A program made the translations under genes and the position numbers. From Thioalbus denitrificans (GTDB taxonomy: Bacteria; Pseudomonadota; Gammaproteobacteria; DSM-26407), in assembly GCF_003337735.1 (NCBI RefSeq), contig NZ_QPJY01000009.1, positions 1-64,000 of the forward strand: a stretch of 64,000 nt of DNA, given 5' to 3'. The notes beneath the pieces were generated by a model. It was not told the origin of the DNA. It was given only the letters and a program-made list of their open reading frames with translations, and made no database searches. Below are positions 51,968 to 61,285 of the stretch, piece by piece (position 1 is the stretch's first letter; each line of letters begins with the position of its first letter).

Positions 51968-53278
51968 TCACAGTTCGAGGGAGGGAATCCGGTCCTCGTC
52001 GACCGGGTGGGCGACCGTGCCGGCCGGGTGCCGGTACCAGCCGGGATCGTCGTAGCTGTCGCGCGGCAGGTCGTCGCGGACCTTGAGCACCGTGAACATG
52101 CCGCCCATCTCGATGGGGCCGAAGGGTCCCTCGCCGGTCATCATCGGCAGGGTGTTCTCGGGCAGCGGCATCATCGCCTGCATGGCGGCCATGTCCTGCA
52201 TCTCCGCCATTCCCGTCTCGCCCATGGACATGTAGTGGCCGCCGGGCAGCAGGGACTGGATGAGGGGGGTGGCGTCGCCCTGGTCGACCCCCAGCAGGTT
52301 CGGCACCGCGTGTCCCATGGGGCCCATGGTGTGGTGGGACTTGTGGCAGTGGAAGGCCCAGTCGCCGGCGGCGTCGGCCACGAACTCCACGCAGCGCATC
52401 GCCCCCACCGGCACGTCCACCGTCACCTCCGGCCACTGGGCCGCGGCGGGGATCCAGCCGCCGTCGGTGCCCGTCACCCGAAAGCTGAAGCCGTGCAGGT
52501 GGATGGGGTGGTTGGTCATGGTGAGGTTGCCGATGCGGATGCGCACCCGCTCTCCGGTGCGGGCCACCAGGGGGTCGATGGCGGGGAAGACGCGCCCGTT
52601 GATGACCCAGGTGTTGAACTCGGTCATGGTGGCGGTGCGGGGCGTGTAGGTCCCGGGATCGATGTCGTAGGCGGACAGCATCAGGGCGTAGTCGCGGTCC
52701 ACCCGGTGCTGCTCCGGGTCGCGGGGATGGACGATGAACAGCCCCATCATGCCCATGGCCATCTGCACCATCTCGTCGGCGTGGGGGTGGTACATGAAGG
52801 TGCCGCTCTGGCGCAGGGCGAACTCGTACACGAAGGTTTTACCCGGCGGGATCTGCGGCTGGGTGAGACCGCCCACGCCGTCCATGCCGCTGGGCAGGAA
52901 CAGCCCGTGCCAGTGGACCGTGGTGTGCTCGGGCAGCCGGTTGGTGACGTAGATGCGCACCCGGTCACCCTCCACCGCCTCGATGGTGGGGCCGGGCGAG
53001 CCGCCGTTGTAGCCCCACAGGTTCGCCGCCATGCCCGGGGCCAGCTCCCGGCGCACCGGTTCGGCCACCAGGTGGAACTCCTTCACCCCGTTGTTCAGCC
53101 GCCAGGGGAGGCTGCGGCCGTTGAGGGTCACCACCGGGCGGTAGGGGCGGCCGGCGCCGGGCCGGGCTGGCGGCCGGGTCTGTTCGGCCGGGGCGGCGCC
53201 GGCGGCGTCCATCCGCCCGAGCAGGGCGATGCCCCCCAGGGCCGCGGCGCCGGTGCTGAGAAAATGTCGACGGTTCAT
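51968..53278 (-). CDS. Multicopper oxidase, CopA/CumA type, Tat-exported
   Basis: 436 residues from ATG 53278 (AAGGAGAGC upstream). The N-terminus MNRRHFLSTGAAALGGIALL is a Tat signal. All four copper-binding motifs are present: HWHG, HPHADEM, HPIHLHG and HCHKSHHTMGPM with the type 1 Cys and Met. A Met-rich stretch (MSMGETGMAEMQDMAAMQAM, about 365-385) is typical of periplasmic copper oxidases that oxidise Cu(I) to Cu(II). It sits between the TolC-like and cupredoxin genes. Confidence 0.94.
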   Translation of the reverse strand: MNRRHFLSTGAAALGGIALLGRMDAAGAAPAEQTRPPARPGAGRPYRPVVTLNGRSLPWRLNNGVKEFHLVAEPVRRELAPGMAANLWGYNGGSPGPTIEAVEGDRVRIYVTNRLPEHTTVHWHGLFLPSGMDGVGGLTQPQIPPGKTFVYEFALRQSGTFMYHPHADEMVQMAMGMMGLFIVHPRDPEQHRVDRDYALMLSAYDIDPGTYTPRTATMTEFNTWVINGRVFPAIDPLVARTGERVRIRIGNLTMTNHPIHLHGFSFRVTGTDGGWIPAAAQWPEVTVDVPVGAMRCVEFVADAAGDWAFHCHKSHHTMGPMGHAVPNLLGVDQGDATPLIQSLLPGGHYMSMGETGMAEMQDMAAMQAMMPLPENTLPMMTGEGPFGPIEMGGMFTVLKVRDDLPRDSYDDPGWYRHPAGTVAHPVDEDRIPSLEL

Positions 53279-53298
53279 CGGTTGCTCTCCTTGCTCGT

Positions 53299-54576
53299 TC
53301 AGTGCGCGTGGGTGGCCGCGGCCGGGGCGGTGGGCGTCGCGGGCTGCGCCGCGGGCGCGGCGGCGGTGGCCGGGGGCAGCAGGCCGCCCGCGGCGTGCTC
53401 CAGCCGCAGCAGGGCCACGCCGTAGTCGTGGGCGGCCGCGTGCCACGCCCGGCGCGCCTCCAGCTCCCGGCTCCGCGCCTCCAGCAGGTCGTAGGGGCCG
53501 ATCAGCATGCCGTTGTAGTGCTTCAGGGCCTCGCCGGTGACCGCCGCGCGGGCGGGCAGCAGGGTGGTGCGGATGCGCTCGGCCCGGTCGTGGGCGAGCC
53601 GCAGCCGGGACAGCCCGGCAACGATCTCCTCCCCCACCTGCCGGCGCAGGCTGAACAACTCCAGCTCGGCCTCGCTGACGGCGGGCTCCTGGCGCAGGCG
53701 GTTGCCCCGGTCCAGCAGCGGCAGGCGCAGGGGCGGGTTGGGGCCCCCGCGGACGAGGGGGCGGGGCCCGGCGGCGAGCCGGAAGCGGGACTCGGCCTGG
53801 CGCGCGTCGAGCCGGTTGCGCCAGGCGTGGCCCTCCAGGTCGTCCCAGGCCGGCAGCGCCGCCGGCGGCGCCGGCAGGCCGGCGGTGCGCAGCGACTGCC
53901 CGTCGCCGGGCGACAGCCCCGCCAGGCGGGCGAGGCGGGCCCGGGCGCTCTCCAGCTCCTCCTGCACGGCATCCCGTTCGGCCTCGGCCTGCACCCGGTC
54001 GGCGGTATGGGCGGCCGCCTCCAGGGCGCTGAGGGTGCCCGCTGAGCGCTGGGCCCGGGCCAGCCGTTCCGCCGCCAGGGCGGCGTCGGCCAGCTGTCCG
54101 GCCGTTTCCCGGTCGGCCTCCAGGCGGGCCAGCCCGTACCAGGCCTCGCCCACCTCGAGCGCGGCGTCAAGCACCCGCCCGGCCAGGGCGGCGCGCTGCT
54201 CGCCGGGATGGGGCGCGGGGCTGTCCGCCGTGCCCGCGGCCAGGCCGAGGAGGTCGCGGCGCAGGTTGAACCCCGGCGGCTGCTCCAGCAGCCCGGCGCG
54301 GAGCAGGTCGGCGGGCGTCACGCCGAAGGCGCGGTAGGCGTGGAGCAGCTCCGGGCTTCCCAGCAGCGCCAGGCGCAGGGTGGCGTCGAGGGTCAGCGGC
54401 TGCGCGGCCAGCGCGGTGGTGGCCGCCCCGACGCCGGCGCCCTGGGCGCCGGCATGGATATTGGGCGGCGGGAGGGAAGACCCGGTATCCGCCGCTGCGG
54501 TGACCGCGTCGGTGGCGGTGGTGGACAGGAATGCGGCCAGGACCAGGCCGGGCGCATTCGGGATGCGTCTTGGCAT
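53299..54576 (-). CDS. TolC-family outer membrane protein
   Basis: 425 residues from ATG 54576. A signal peptide (GLVLAAFLSTTATDAVTAAA) is followed by the TolC-type helical pattern with two repeats: LDATLRLALLGSPELLHAYR, then long Ala/Leu/Arg/Glu-rich helices (about 110-200 and 290-400) and the ARAAVTGEALKHYNGMLIGPYDLLEARSRE segment in pieces, common to CusC-like proteins. The C-terminal 25 residues are Ala/Pro-rich and end in His-Ala-His. No inner-membrane pump is next to it, so its partner must be elsewhere, or it serves the copper enzymes directly. Confidence 0.85.
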   Translation of the reverse strand: MPRRIPNAPGLVLAAFLSTTATDAVTAAADTGSSLPPPNIHAGAQGAGVGAATTALAAQPLTLDATLRLALLGSPELLHAYRAFGVTPADLLRAGLLEQPPGFNLRRDLLGLAAGTADSPAPHPGEQRAALAGRVLDAALEVGEAWYGLARLEADRETAGQLADAALAAERLARAQRSAGTLSALEAAAHTADRVQAEAERDAVQEELESARARLARLAGLSPGDGQSLRTAGLPAPPAALPAWDDLEGHAWRNRLDARQAESRFRLAAGPRPLVRGGPNPPLRLPLLDRGNRLRQEPAVSEAELELFSLRRQVGEEIVAGLSRLRLAHDRAERIRTTLLPARAAVTGEALKHYNGMLIGPYDLLEARSRELEARRAWHAAAHDYGVALLRLEHAAGGLLPPATAAAPAAQPATPTAPAAATHAH

Positions 54577-54644
54577 CGGTTTCGACTCCGAACTGAGGGC
54601 AACGGGGTTCCGCCGTGGGCGGGACCGGTCACGGGGCAGTCGGG

Positions 54645-55001
54645 TCAGGCGCGGGGGGGACGCAGCAGGGCAGTGGGGGGCGGGGCGGGAGCCCGGGCCA
54701 CGGTGCTGAAGAAAACCGTGGCCGTGGCCGCCGGATATCCGGATTGCGGGCCCCCGGGGAGGGTGGCGAAACAGGCGCCGCAGTGGCTGCAGTCCTGGCA
54801 GATGGGCGTGCCGTCCGCGGTCCGGTCCGTGTCCGGCGCCGGGGCGTGGAAGTCCGGGCCGCCGTGAACAACCGCGGGATCGTGCGCGCTCCGATCGGGT
54901 CCACCGTCGCCGCAGTGATCCATGCCGGCCGCCTGCAGCCATTGGAATGGTTGCAGCACCAGGACCAGCAGCAGGACGAGTTTGCGCAGCCGAACGGACA
55001 C
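54645..55001 (-). CDS. Small exported Cys/His-rich protein (copper operon)
   Basis: 118 residues. A signal peptide (KLVLLLVLVLQPFQWLQAA) leads a mature part rich in His and Asp (about 22-60) and a cluster CQDCSHCGACFATLPGG (near 68-84). This layout recalls DUF2946-type small proteins found at the head of copper-resistance operons; metal binding is likely but unproven. It precedes the TolC-like gene by 68 bases on the same strand. Confidence 0.75.
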   Translation of the reverse strand: MSVRLRKLVLLLVLVLQPFQWLQAAGMDHCGDGGPDRSAHDPAVVHGGPDFHAPAPDTDRTADGTPICQDCSHCGACFATLPGGPQSGYPAATATVFFSTVARAPAPPPTALLRPPRA

Positions 55002-55168
55002 GGACCGGGCTCATGCAGGGATGATTCAGTGTTGACTGTCCCGCAGGCTTTTGGTTCCGGGAGGCGCTGCAATCACGCCGGCGCGCCGCCACTCGGGGCG
55101 GCGGGTGCCAATGGGTCCCGGTGTCCTATCCTTAGAACAGGCAGGGGATATGTGGCGGGAGTGGCGGA

Positions 55169-56200: not shown

Positions 56201-57808
56201 TCACTGGCGGTTGGGGACGCCGCCGGGGCGGTTGCGGTACTGGGACGGATCGATGCCGCAGGTCTTGAGCTTGAGGTGCACCGAGCGGGGCGTGATGCCC
56301 ATCTCCCGGGCCACGGCGCTGACATTGCCGCCATTGCGGAACAGGGCGTCCTTCAGCAGCCGGGTCTCGACCTCCCGGGCCGCGCGCCGCTTCTGGGTGC
56401 GCAGGGCGCCGCCGCCGGCGGCCGGGCCGTCGGCTTTCACGGCGACGTCCAGATCCTCGATGACCGACCCGCGGGCGAACAGGTAGGCCCGCTCGAGCAC
56501 GTTCTCCAGTTCGCGGACGTTGCCCGGCCAGTCGTACTGCATGGCCTTGCCCCAGGCCTGCTCGCCGAGCACCTTGGGCGGCTGGCGGTACTTGCCGGCC
56601 AGCCGCCGCAGGATCAGGTTCACCAGCCCGGTGATGTCGTCCCGGCGCTCGCGCAGCGGCGGGAGGTGGATGGGGACCACGTGCAGCCGGTAGTAGAGGT
56701 CGCTGCGGAACTCGTTCGTCGCCACCATCTTCTCGATGCGGCGGTTCGAGGCGGCGATGATGCGGACGTCGGCGCGCAGGACCTGGCGCCCGCCGACCCG
56801 TTCGAACTCGCTCTCCTGCAGCACCCGCAGCAGCTTGGCCTGGGCCGGGAGGGGCAGGCTGTCGATCTCGTCCAGGAACAGGGTGCCCTGCTCGGCGCGC
56901 TCGAAGAAGCCCTGGTGGACGTTGCAGGCGCCGGTGAAGGCGCCTTTCTCATGGCCGAACAGCGCGCTCTCGATGAGCTCGTGGGGGATGGCGCCGCAGT
57001 TCACCGCGACGAACTTCCGCTCGCTGCGGTTGCTCAGCGCATGGATGGCGCGGGCGATGATCTCCTTGCCCACGCCGGTCTCGCCGCTGATGAAGACCGA
57101 GGCCTGGGTGGGGGCCACCACCTCCACGGCTTCCAGCGCCGCGCGCATCTCGGGCGACTCGGCGACGATGGCCGGCCGCGGCTGCCGGCCGTCCGGGTGG
57201 GCGCGGGCATCGGTGGGGCACCAGAGGCCCTCCATCCGGCTGGCCACGCGCACGGAGACCTCCGCGTGCTCCGATCGGGACACCAGCGCCTCGCCGTGGT
57301 TGTGGTACTCGTCGCCCCGCACTCCCGCGGCCAGCTCCGGGTCGGTGTGGATGCAGACCTCGCAGCGGTCGTCGCCGGCGGCGATGCGCCGTTTCAGCTC
57401 CACCTTGGCGTAGCCGAAGTTGCGCGCCGCGATGCCGCCGAACACCGAGGAGGTCATGCGGCACAGCTCGGGCGCCTCCCGGACCATGTCGCCGAAGGGG
57501 CAGCGGGTGGCCTCCACCCGGATGACCCGGTCCGGGCCGGAGCTGCGGGAGAAGCTGCCGCCGATGCGGTTCTTGATGTTGACGATCACATCGGCGTATT
57601 CGTCGGGGGTGATGGGGCCGACCAGGCCCAGCTCCTCCCGGGCCGCGGCCTCGAAGCAGCTGCTGGCGGTGAGGCCCAGGAATTCGATGTAGTTGAAGTG
57701 ATCCTCGCAGGCGGAGCAGCCCTTCTGGTTCGCCACCTTGATGCTCTGGGTGACGAAGGTCTGTAGAAAGGAGATCGGATTCAGGTTCCCCGGGCGCCTG
57801 GTTTTCAT
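56201..57808 (-). CDS. Sigma54-dependent activator with cysteine-rich sensor domain
   Basis: 535 residues. The N-terminal sensor (about 1-190) has Cys at 31, 34, 51, 103, 116, 149 and 152, including CSAC, RCPFGD, ELCRM and RCEVC; this pattern recalls the MetOD1/V4R-like sensor domains but the match is from memory. The AAA+ domain follows: GETGVGKE (242-249), GAFTGA (289-294, the sigma54 contact loop), FLDEI (311-315), and a C-terminal Fis-type helix-turn-helix (NVSAVAREMGITPRSVHLKL). It should activate sigma54 promoters in response to a metal, redox or sulfur signal. A sigma54 promoter lies 1.7 kb upstream at 59488. Confidence 0.92.
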   Translation of the reverse strand: MKTRRPGNLNPISFLQTFVTQSIKVANQKGCSACEDHFNYIEFLGLTASSCFEAAAREELGLVGPITPDEYADVIVNIKNRIGGSFSRSSGPDRVIRVEATRCPFGDMVREAPELCRMTSSVFGGIAARNFGYAKVELKRRIAAGDDRCEVCIHTDPELAAGVRGDEYHNHGEALVSRSEHAEVSVRVASRMEGLWCPTDARAHPDGRQPRPAIVAESPEMRAALEAVEVVAPTQASVFISGETGVGKEIIARAIHALSNRSERKFVAVNCGAIPHELIESALFGHEKGAFTGACNVHQGFFERAEQGTLFLDEIDSLPLPAQAKLLRVLQESEFERVGGRQVLRADVRIIAASNRRIEKMVATNEFRSDLYYRLHVVPIHLPPLRERRDDITGLVNLILRRLAGKYRQPPKVLGEQAWGKAMQYDWPGNVRELENVLERAYLFARGSVIEDLDVAVKADGPAAGGGALRTQKRRAAREVETRLLKDALFRNGGNVSAVAREMGITPRSVHLKLKTCGIDPSQYRNRPGGVPNRQ

Positions 57809-57993: not shown

Positions 57994-58416
57994 TCAGGAG
58001 CCGCAGCACGGTTCCTCGGCGCACACCCGGCAGCGCCTGCAGTAGTAGGCGTTGGTCAGGTGTGCGGTGATGAGCAGCACGCCTCCGGTCACGGTCAGCC
58101 CGGTTTCCAGCGCCTCGCCGGCGAACCCTTCCGGGATGAAGGCCGCAAAGGCAAGCATAGCAAAGCCCGCCAGGGCCGCCATGGCCATGCCGGGACGGTT
58201 GTGCTGACGATAGCCGGGGATGAAGGCCAGCAGCCCGACGAACATCAGCGCCGAGACGAAGCCGATGTGGGTCCCCTTCTCGGTCACGGCCAGCACCGGC
58301 AGCAGCGCCGCCAGGAAGGGGGTGGCGATGCAGTGTCCGATACACAGGAGCGAGCCGATGACTCCGACCCGGTCCCAACGCGTGCCTTGCGGCAGTTCGA
58401 TTCTTGCACTATGCAT
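57994..58416 (-). CDS. MerC-like membrane protein
   Basis: 140 residues from ATG 58416 (GGAGGG upstream). Four membrane helices are visible, with the MerC signature in the first (VIGSLLCIGHCIATPFLAALLP, i.e. CxGHC) and a Cys-rich C-terminus (YYCRRCRVCAEEPCCGS). MerC carries Hg(II) across the inner membrane in mercury resistance, but no merA or merR is near. The two Cys clusters suggest handling of a soft metal or thiol-reactive compound in this operon. Confidence 0.85.
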   Translation of the reverse strand: MHSARIELPQGTRWDRVGVIGSLLCIGHCIATPFLAALLPVLAVTEKGTHIGFVSALMFVGLLAFIPGYRQHNRPGMAMAALAGFAMLAFAAFIPEGFAGEALETGLTVTGGVLLITAHLTNAYYCRRCRVCAEEPCCGS

Positions 58417-58460: not shown

Positions 58461-58676
58461 TCACGGACAGCAACGGCAGCCCTTGCCGCACTGGGGCAGC
58501 GACCTGGCCGCCTGTTCCCGTCCCTGCGCCATCCCGCCGTGCACCGGGGGTGCGGAGAGCAGAACGCGGACGGCCTCGCCGCCGCAGCCGGGGCAGGGCG
58601 GCTTCGGCGCGGCCAGGGCGTGGAACGCCTCGAAGTCCCGGCCGCAGGCATGGCAGCGGTAGTCGTAGGTCGGCAT
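58461..58676 (-). CDS. FmdB-family zinc ribbon protein
   Basis: 71 residues from ATG 58676 (MPTYDYRCHACG). The FmdB zinc ribbon is clear: CHACGRDFEAF and CPGCGGEAVRVLLS give two CxxC pairs. The C-terminus (QCGKGCRCCP) has four more Cys. FmdB was first named as a putative regulator of amide hydrolase genes, though many family members have no known role. It lies between the hydrolase and the MerC-like gene on the same strand. Confidence 0.9.
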   Translation of the reverse strand: MPTYDYRCHACGRDFEAFHALAAPKPPCPGCGGEAVRVLLSAPPVHGGMAQGREQAARSLPQCGKGCRCCP

Positions 58677-58764
58677 GGCATGACCCCTCTTGTCTGGTAA
58701 CGTGAAATTCCCACAGGCAAGTGGGGCGCCGGGGCGTTGCCGCACCCGGCGCCCGTCAGGCGCC

Positions 58765-59418
58765 TCAGCTCCAGCGCGGCGGCTGCTTGCCCTTCACGTT
58801 CATGGACGCGGCGGTGGCCTGGGTGACCGACCGGGTGGGCGCATTGGGATTGGGCGCCCGCAGGCGGCGGAACTCCGTCTCCCATACCCAGCCGCTGATG
58901 GTGATGTCGTCGGGGATGAGCGGGTGGTTGCGCAGCTGCTCCACGCAGCGGATGCAGGTGGCGTCCACGTCGTCCATCATGCCGATCCACTTGGCGAAGT
59001 TGCCGGGAGCGAGACTCAGCTCGGGCAGGGAGGGATCGATGGGCACGCTGTCCACGTCGATGCCCTTGCCGCGCAGGGCCGCCTCCAGGTCATTGCCGTT
59101 GGCCGAGAGCATGCCGCAGCCCGTGTGCTGGAGGACGATGATCTCCTTGGTGCCGAAGAAGTTGATGGTCAGCATGGCCGAGCGGATGGCGTCGTCGGTG
59201 ACGATGCCGCCGGCGTTGCGGAACAGGTGGGCATCGCCGCCGCCGACCGGGGTATCCGCGCGGATGCCGAGCGCCTCGTCCACGGGCAGGCGCTCATCCA
59301 TGCAGGCAAGTACCCACAGCCGGCGCATGTTGGGGCCATCGGCCCCGAACTGGCGCCGGATGGACCAGTCGTCGTAGCTCTTGACCCGGCTTTCGATTTC
59401 AGCCTTGAGTGTCGTCAT
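58765..59418 (-). CDS. Beta-carbonic anhydrase family enzyme, probable carbonyl sulfide / carbon disulfide hydrolase
   Basis: 217 residues. The zinc site is Cys39, His98 and Cys101 with the Asp41/Arg43 dyad (LACMDERL, HTGCGM). Unlike common beta-carbonic anhydrases it shares, by memory, long features with the CS2 hydrolase of Acidianus and COS hydrolase of Thiobacillus: RRLWVLACMDER, DAHLFRNAGGIVTDDAIRSA, NFFGTKEIIVLQHTGCGML and the C-terminal LRNHPLIPDDITISGWVWET with RRLRAPN. Those enzymes turn COS or CS2 into H2S and CO2. The start at 59418 follows GGAGATGG. A sigma54 promoter lies 70 bases upstream. Confidence 0.85.
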   Translation of the reverse strand: MTTLKAEIESRVKSYDDWSIRRQFGADGPNMRRLWVLACMDERLPVDEALGIRADTPVGGGDAHLFRNAGGIVTDDAIRSAMLTINFFGTKEIIVLQHTGCGMLSANGNDLEAALRGKGIDVDSVPIDPSLPELSLAPGNFAKWIGMMDDVDATCIRCVEQLRNHPLIPDDITISGWVWETEFRRLRAPNPNAPTRSVTQATAASMNVKGKQPPRWS

Positions 59419-59821
59419 TCTCCATCTCCTCGCATATTGTTTTATGGATGTTTCGGGCCGGTTGTGGTCGCCGGCGAAGGAGAATGGAGCAGGACCCGTG
59501 CCATAATTACAATATCATTAAAAACAATAGGATAGGATTTGCCCGATACTCCCGCCGCACCGGCCTGGTTCGCGCCGCCTGCGGCCATGACATGGAAAAT
59601 ATTAAATAAAACAATAAGTAATGTATTTATGAAGCCTGGGTTCGCGGTGCGAAGTCCGGCTTCGCGGTTTTCGCCTCTGCCGTGACCGGGCCGTGCCGGG
59701 CGCCGGTCGGTTGTGGACCTTCCGCCGGCAATGAAACATCATGCACCGGAGGTGCCGGTGCCGTGCCGCAGCCGACTGGGCGGGCCGGCGGGCAGTGCAA
59801 GGACAGGGAGAACTCTGAAAG
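59419..59821. other. Divergent intergenic region (hydrolase / diguanylate cyclase)
   Basis: 403 bases. Besides the sigma54 promoter it contains two AT-rich patches, 59503-59535 and 59590-59630 (with TAAATA/TATTTA half-sites at about 59606 and 59627), separated by GC-rich DNA. These are candidate enhancer-type sites for the activator. 59640-59821 is GC-rich leader DNA before the cyclase gene, with no other gene visible. Confidence 0.55.
59488..59503 (-). promoter_or_regulatory. Sigma54 (-24/-12) promoter of the hydrolase operon
   Basis: On the minus strand TGGCACGGGTCCTGCT matches TGGCACG-N4-TTGCW at all but one position, with the invariant GG and GC ten bases apart. A start near 59477 would give a leader of about 59 bases to ATG 59418. 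The AT-rich stretch beyond (59505-59635, plus coordinates) could hold activator and IHF sites. Confidence 0.8.
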
Positions 59822-61285
59822 ATGTCGTGGGGGAAATCCGCGCTTTCGTTCCGCACGCGGCTGGTGGCCATCGTGGTCATGGTGCTGGCGGTGGGCTTCA
59901 TCACCACCAGCGCCATCAGCTTCAACGTCTCCAGGGAGAGCCTGCGTGAGACCATCGTCGTAAACGAGCTGCCGCTTACCAGCAACAACATCTACTCCGA
60001 CATCCAGGTGGACCTGCTGCGGCCGGTCTTCGTCTCCTCGCTGATGGCCAACGACACCTTCCTCAAGGACTGGGTGCTGGGCGGCGAGCAGGACGAGGAC
60101 AGGATCCGGCGCTACCTGAACGAGATCCGGCTCAAGTACGACGCCTTCACCAGCTTCTTCGTTTCCGAGCGGACCCGCAACTACTACCACTTTTCCGGGG
60201 TGACCCAGGTGGTGGAGGAGGCGGACCCCCGCGACGCCTGGTTCTTCCGCGTCCGCGCCATGGAAACGCCCTACGAGATCAATGTCGACCACAACGCCGA
60301 GCAGGGCGACACCCTGACCATCTTCATCAACTACCGCGTGCTCGATGAGAAGGGACATTTTCTCGGCGCCGCCGGCGTGGGCCTGCAGCTGGACACGGTG
60401 GCCCGGATTCTCACCCAGTACTCCCAGAACTACCGCCGGACCATCTACTTCGTCGATGGCGCGGGGCAGATCATGCTGCGCTCCGAGGGCGCCCGCATCA
60501 CCGTCGACGACATCCACCAGGCCGAGGGCATGGGCGAGGTGGCGGATCGCATCCTGGGGGCCGATCACACCTCCCTGAGCTACCGCAGCGGTGACGAGAC
60601 CGTCCTGCTCAGCTCGCGCTACATCCCCGAGCTGAAATGGTGGGTGCTGGTGGAGCAGAAGGAGGCGCAGGCGACCACGGAGCTGCGCCAGAGCCTCATG
60701 GTCAACTTCCTGGTCAGCCTGGTGGTCATCGGTCTGACCATCCTGATGGTGGTCTACACGGTCAACCACTTCCAGGCCCGGCTGGAGACGCTCGCCACCA
60801 CCGACAAGCTCACCGGCATCGGCAACCGCCAGGTTTTCGATATCAGCCTGGAGCAGAGCCTCAAGGTCATGCAGCGCTACGGCGAGCCCTTCTCGGTGTT
60901 CCTGTTCGACATCAACCGGTTCAAGACCATCAACGACACCTACGGCCACCTGGAGGGGGACCGGGTGCTGCGCATGGTGGCGCGGATGGGCAGCGAGACC
61001 CTGCGCGAGTCGGACCTGATCTGCCGCTGGGGCGGTGACGAGTTCATCGTCATCGCCCGCCAGTGCCGCCTCGAGGACGGTCTCCGGGTGGCGGACAAGC
61101 TGCAGCGGAGCATCGAGTCGACGCCGCTGCTGCGGGACGGCAAGGCGGTGACCATCACCGTGGGCATCACCGAGAGCCGGCCCGGGGACGATGCCGATGC
61201 CGTTCTGGCCCGGGTGGACCAGGCGTTCTACGCCGCCAAGCACGCGGCCCGGAAGGGGCAGGAATCGGTCGCGGAGCCGGGCTGA
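59822..61285 (+). CDS. Membrane diguanylate cyclase with dCache-type sensor
   Basis: 487 residues. Two membrane helices (LVAIVVMVLAVGFITTSAIS near 15-34 and NFLVSLVVIGLTILMVVYTV near 295-315) enclose a periplasmic dCache-like sensor (about 40-290; YRRTIYFVDGAGQIML, YIPELKWWVLVEQ). The cytoplasmic GGDEF domain begins at LATTDKLTGIGNRQVFD and has an intact GGDEF (404-408) with the RESD inhibitory site five residues before. It should make cyclic di-GMP from GTP under control of an outside ligand, with product inhibition. PilZ and glucan-synthase genes elsewhere in the window are possible outputs. Confidence 0.95.
   Translation: MSWGKSALSFRTRLVAIVVMVLAVGFITTSAISFNVSRESLRETIVVNELPLTSNNIYSDIQVDLLRPVFVSSLMANDTFLKDWVLGGEQDEDRIRRYLNEIRLKYDAFTSFFVSERTRNYYHFSGVTQVVEEADPRDAWFFRVRAMETPYEINVDHNAEQGDTLTIFINYRVLDEKGHFLGAAGVGLQLDTVARILTQYSQNYRRTIYFVDGAGQIMLRSEGARITVDDIHQAEGMGEVADRILGADHTSLSYRSGDETVLLSSRYIPELKWWVLVEQKEAQATTELRQSLMVNFLVSLVVIGLTILMVVYTVNHFQARLETLATTDKLTGIGNRQVFDISLEQSLKVMQRYGEPFSVFLFDINRFKTINDTYGHLEGDRVLRMVARMGSETLRESDLICRWGGDEFIVIARQCRLEDGLRVADKLQRSIESTPLLRDGKAVTITVGITESRPGDDADAVLARVDQAFYAAKHAARKGQESVAEPG

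Follow-up and report, generated by a model that had tools for sequence, protein, structure and literature searches.

A short gene set in Thioalbus denitrificans raises the question of what an enzyme of the carbonic anhydrase fold does when it has a sigma54 promoter, two cysteine-rich partners and a dedicated activator at its side. The DNA analysed, called the window here, is a stretch of 64,000 nucleotides (contig NZ_QPJY01000009.1, positions 1 to 64,000). The initial annotation proposed that a hydrolase of carbonyl sulfide (COS) or carbon disulfide (CS2) is followed by FmdB, MerC and activator genes and preceded by a near-consensus -24/-12 promoter. All four genes are found in that order on the minus strand, and the MerC and activator genes stand at the places claimed for them although they lie beyond the interval 58461-59503 that had been singled out. 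The features are as follows.

59648-59666, minus strand: upstream dyad 1, CGCGAAG-CCGGA-CTTCGCA, a candidate activator binding site
59629-59645, minus strand: upstream dyad 2, GCGAAC-CCAGG-CTTCAT, a degenerate copy in tandem with dyad 1, read from the sequence
59489-59503, minus strand: -24/-12 sigma54 promoter TGGCACGGGTCCTGC, of the form TGGCACG-N4-CTGC, about 70 nt before the ATG
58765-59418, minus strand: predicted CS2 hydrolase of beta-carbonic-anhydrase fold, 217 aa (Pfam Pro_CA)
58461-58676, minus strand: FmdB-type zinc ribbon protein, 71 aa (Zn_ribbon_8 / TIGR02605, 1.2e-15), with the start codon set at the methionine of MPTYDY
57994-58416, minus strand: MerC-like small membrane protein, 140 aa, accessory (PF03203, 1.9e-23)
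56201-57808, minus strand: sigma54-dependent activator, 535 aa (PF00158, HTH_8 and a MetOD1 sensor)

The surroundings of these genes help to delimit the system. The adjoining GGDEF gene (59822-61285, plus strand) is placed outside it because this gene has no conserved place beside the enzyme gene in most loci. A terminator or riboswitch in the 185-nt gap between the MerC and activator genes was rejected, as the fold is no better than that of shuffled sequences (z -0.54). A tRNA scan and an Rfam scan gave no matches. Genes for a multicopper oxidase and an outer membrane efflux protein (window 51968-55092, minus strand) lie near the operon and form a possible copper-handling cluster. The Thioalbus genome contains dsrA (584 bits), soxZ, an SQR-like gene and an FccB-like gene, and the host is therefore very probably a sulfur oxidiser.

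The identity of the enzyme is central to the question. Its closest solved structure is the CS2 hydrolase of Acidianus A1-3 (PDB 3ten/3teo), with 3ten matched at an E value of 6.6e-51 and aligned at 54% identity. The zinc ligands C39, H98 and C101, shared with 3ten, and the D41/R43 pair are invariant across 38 aligned sequences. A Phe-Phe motif, F87-F88 in the window enzyme and likewise present in 3ten, is shared by the whole CS2 hydrolase clade and missing from every COS hydrolase and carbonic anhydrase examined; it has been named as characteristic of CS2 hydrolase (PMC6382920). The clade that includes the window enzyme and 3ten has a support of 99 in a 108-row tree. With the longest branches left out, a 38-row tree recovers the same clade with a support of 100/99 and in 100% of 200 bootstrap trees, and places the COS hydrolase and the carbonic anhydrases in groups apart from it. 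In an AlphaFold model of the enzyme, 3ten is again the top structural match, the model being mediocre (pLDDT 72, TM about 0.5) and used only for the rank order of the matches. The COS hydrolase of Thiobacillus thioparus THI115 (3vqj) has the clade D beta-carbonic-anhydrase fold and zinc site in common with the window enzyme, but it is less similar (6e-18), has LL in place of FF, and pairs with a different paralog from a Thiobacillus locus. The window enzyme does not group with the clade-D carbonic anhydrases either, and the host genome's own clade-D carbonic anhydrase is a separate gene. The tree thus bears out the initial annotation in putting the enzyme outside the carbonic anhydrases. Of the COS and CS2 hydrolase features claimed there, those of CS2 hydrolase stand, and membership of the COS hydrolases falls with the tree and with FF against LL. 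Judged by its sequence, the enzyme is a CS2 hydrolase (EC 3.13.1.5), neither a COS hydrolase nor an ordinary carbonic anhydrase. Enzymes of this class hydrolyse CS2, show little or no CO2 hydration, and assemble as an octamer or catenane. Known CS2 hydrolases are those of Acidianus, which is the characterised reference, and of Acidithiobacillus thiooxidans; Acidithiobacillus supplies the nearest bacterial enzymes assayed by others and is absent by name from the sequences compared. The window enzyme differs by an insert containing GGG and by a conserved QPPRW tail at its C-terminus, and its gene lies together with that of FmdB (and MerC) in an operon under sigma54 control. The QPPRW tail is common to most bacterial members of the clade.

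The gene set is conserved far beyond Thioalbus. A search of 84,980 species genomes yielded 167 relatives, the best 80 of which were kept for locus counts. Carriers include Nitrosomonas, Nitrosospira, Nitrosovibrio, Methylomonas, Methylobacter, Thiocapsa and Thiohalocapsa, as well as Thiohalobacter, Sulfuricella, Thiobacillus and Thiodiazotropha symbionts. An FmdB gene lies within 500 nt downstream of the enzyme gene on the same strand in 78 of the 80 loci, at a median distance of 93 nt. A full activator is present in the same locus in 73 of 80, and most of the seven without a full match end at a contig boundary, as L052, L062 and L112 do, or contain a disrupted activator, as in L060. The activator gene is co-directional and downstream in 45 loci, and divergent and upstream in 24, mainly in Nitrosomonadaceae. 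Since both orientations occur, the association of enzyme and activator has outlived rearrangement. The pairwise divergences of enzyme, FmdB and activator correlate (r 0.52-0.75, against permutation maxima of 0.12-0.28), shared host ancestry contributing to these values. The neighbourhood conservation that had been predicted thus holds for enzyme, FmdB and activator, and the proposed four-gene co-occurrence fails for MerC, which is found in 17 of 80 loci, all in the clade around the window.

Some clade members have neither FmdB nor activator beside the gene, namely those on Mycobacterium and haloarchaeal plasmids and in genus g121 (L012, L013), and the two proteins are therefore not needed for catalysis. 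Homologs of the CS2 hydrolase with 44-66% identity are seen on Halopiger and Halobellus plasmids (L119, L120), on a Mycobacterium paragordonae plasmid (L118) and in Pseudonocardia asaccharolytica (L112), with no FmdB or activator seen alongside (L112 is cut by a contig end); the plasmid copies are annotated as carbonic anhydrase. A mobile form of the cassette occurs on a plasmid of Methylobacter sp. YRD-M1 (NZ_CP091425.1; L117, 4068-11378), where CS2 hydrolase, FmdB, ZIP, activator and cupin genes lie between IS3 and IS1 transposase genes.

The control region is conserved together with the genes. The pattern TGGCACR-N4-YTGC has one exact match in the 64-kb window, and this match is the operon promoter claimed in the initial annotation. 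A -24/-12 site scoring at least 15 of 18, its GG and GC elements correctly spaced, is conserved ahead of the enzyme gene: of 86 distinct loci 79 have it, compared with 6.0 in shuffled sequences, and this recurrence in homologous loci makes the promoter more than a chance match. Further upstream is an inverted repeat that the initial annotation had missed. Its consensus is TGYGAAG-N5-CTTCRCA, and it stands about 250 nt from the start codon, with most copies at 190-280 nt. The dyad is often in tandem, and many related loci show a second copy with much the same spacing. A dyad scoring at least 12 of 14 is found in 37 of 86 loci (0.7 expected) and one scoring at least 13 in 15 loci (0.02 expected). 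The pattern was derived from these same loci, which biases the counts upward, and the clustering in position and the gap to the shuffles are still large. The tandem dyad is probably the binding site of the activator.

The activator has an AAA+ domain with the GAFTGA motif and a Fis-type helix-turn-helix. Its N-terminal domain is assigned to Pfam MetOD1 in 41 of 41 activators scanned, and cysteines C103, C116 and C149 of this sensor are invariant in the alignment, which agrees with the Cys-rich sigma54 activator first described at this place. No convincing solved structure was found for the sensor by sequence search. A model of the sensor (pLDDT 78) matches TRAPP/Bet3, H-NOX and the V4R sensors of DmpR, MopR and PoxR at moderate quality (TM about 0.4-0.5). 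These phenol-sensing regulators likewise carry the AAA+ domain and helix-turn-helix, but their sensor is V4R in Pfam, as opposed to MetOD1. From the model, the activator probably works like a bEBP that senses a small molecule.

Among 369 genomes of the class, 10 of the 12 that carry the enzyme also carry the activator. The only other strong activator matches in this set, in G136, G248 and G249, all lie beside another clade-D carbonic anhydrase. Sigma54 and dyad-like sites are present at these three loci and the three sensor cysteines are kept, and two examined copies of that second carbonic anhydrase without an adjacent activator have no such sites. In L150 (3845-7084), L151 (3140-5538) and L152 (4524-6950), an activator of the same MetOD1-sigma54 type diverges from a clade-D beta-carbonic anhydrase of another kind, one that has no FF motif; sigma54 and dyad-like sites are present there, and this arrangement is a candidate second COS-type hydrolase system.

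The FmdB proteins of all loci have in common, beyond the zinc ribbon model, a segment APAxHGxMARGRExAxRSL and a Cys-rich end that reads CGKGCRCCP, as in the window, or HGPGCxCC. These features set them apart as a subfamily of their own, potentially useful as a marker. FmdB may handle zinc for the zinc enzyme or act on the activator. MerC is recognised by its family profile and an LCxxHC motif. In 17 of 17 loci its context is a CS2 hydrolase operon, and no merA or other mer gene is found among the annotated neighbours, the annotation of the neighbours being partial. In two Methylomonas loci and on one Methylobacter plasmid, a ZIP metal transporter gene follows FmdB and MerC is absent. MerC had been proposed as a partner and possible transporter. 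Its family assignment is sound, although it does not belong to the core; because it is confined to one clade and ZIP adjoins FmdB in some methanotrophs, metal is a better guess for its cargo than CS2.

Taken together, these features make it likely that the locus is an inducible operon for CS2 hydrolysis, and the gene set of the window very probably degrades this toxic gas. The activator would bind at the tandem dyad, some 125-175 bp ahead of the -24/-12 promoter. Its MetOD1 (V4R-like) sensor would perceive CS2 or a derived molecule such as COS, sulfide or a dithiocarbamate, and sensing would cause the activator to open the sigma54 promoter. The zinc enzyme would then hydrolyse CS2 via COS to CO2 and 2 H2S. 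For FmdB and MerC, as for ZIP in some methanotrophs, the most likely role is the handling of zinc or thiols on behalf of the zinc enzyme under sulfide or dithiocarbamate stress. In the window's host, with its dsrA, soxZ and sulfide-dehydrogenase-like genes, oxidation of the sulfide could yield energy; where the host oxidises ammonia or methane, the cassette would more likely protect a sensitive metabolism. The balance between catabolism and detoxification thus probably differs by host. Because little CS2 occurs in nature, another compound may be the natural inducer. The initial annotation had suggested an inducible system for COS, CS2 or products of thiocyanate. The clade upholds CS2 and the promoter and activator agree with inducible control, but no thiocyanate genes occur in the neighbourhoods examined, and the presence of the operon in ammonia oxidisers and methanotrophs also counts against a role in thiocyanate use.

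An unlikely alternative is that the operon belongs to a metal or sulfide stress response, with the enzyme as one target of several and an activator that responds to sulfide, persulfide or a lack of zinc. The Cys-rich FmdB, the MerC or ZIP protein and the three invariant sensor cysteines would suit such a response, as would neighbouring genes of sulfide oxidation. Downstream of the cassette, Nitrosomonadaceae have a Blh-SQR fusion, a Blh-type persulfide dioxygenase and a TauE/SafE exporter, the SQR and dioxygenase matches falling below the NCBIfam equivalog cut-offs, and SQR-like genes lie nearby in Thiobacillus- and Thiogranum-like loci. The same genes make up known Blh/SQR/persulfide dioxygenase operons for sulfide detoxification, but in the ammonia oxidisers they stand downstream of the cassette, where CS2 hydrolysis apparently feeds them and the regulator alongside is of another, sigma54 type; in that position they also count in favour of the CS2 reading. 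A wider regulon in the host genome was considered and rejected. Part of the dyad-pattern matches elsewhere in that genome were checked, and these fall within reading frames or a tRNA, which leaves this operon as the whole of the known regulon. The enzyme is the one constant partner. Two further observations concern these neighbourhoods. In four loci of Nitrosomonadaceae type (L094, L098, L100, L077), a Blh domain is fused to a sulfide:quinone reductase-like protein and adjoins TauE, and in L077 a persulfide dioxygenase also adjoins the fusion. An OmpW-type outer-membrane protein is encoded in eight loci.

It is more doubtful still that the enzyme mainly hydrolyses COS, in thiocyanate or COS metabolism, and that its action on CS2 is incidental. 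Characterised CS2 hydrolases reportedly also convert COS. The operon occurs in the thiocyanate user Thiohalobacter thiocyanaticus, but this organism takes a thiocyanate dehydrogenase route in which no COS is formed (PMC6934394), and many other hosts are ammonia or methane oxidisers. The position of the enzyme outside the COS hydrolase clade and its FF motif also weigh against this reading. Moreover, in two Thiobacillus-like loci a true COS hydrolase paralog (RCLIISHHLLNTNE, which groups with 3vqj) is encoded directly upstream of the CS2 hydrolase (L087, 5703-6212; L104, 5702-6211), which suggests separate jobs for the two enzymes. An ordinary carbonic anhydrase operon, as Pfam Pro_CA and automatic annotation would have it, is highly improbable given the tree and the Phe-Phe motif.

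The CS2 hydrolase class is already known, and the operon, its regulation and its spread are apparently undescribed. In agreement with the initial annotation, the open literature, with subscription journals outside the scope of the search, yielded no description of the operon, regulator, promoter, dyad, or spread in nitrifiers and methanotrophs. A broader reading is possible, though somewhat short of probable: the MetOD1-sigma54 activator would be the first example of a sensor devoted to gases of the CS2/COS type. The cassette would then be mobile and widespread, a defence where the host oxidises ammonia or methane and a catabolic operon where it oxidises sulfur. CS2 ranks as a major precursor of COS in the atmosphere. 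Since enzymes of this clade are automatically annotated merely as carbonic anhydrase, organisms that remove CS2 have been overlooked. Conserved as they are, the promoter, dyad and activator form a signature by which inducible CS2 consumers can be recognised in genomes, and they open a way to a CS2 biosensor. In one family, which its position in the tree makes most likely to be Nitrosomonadaceae, about 28% of the genomes (35 of 125) carry the enzyme, so that the tolerance of nitrifiers to CS2 can be tested directly. Ammonia monooxygenase is classically inhibited by CS2 (Hyman 1990, as cited in PMC7170481). If the broader reading is true, the defence cassette would shield ammonia and methane oxidisers from a gas that inhibits their monooxygenases.
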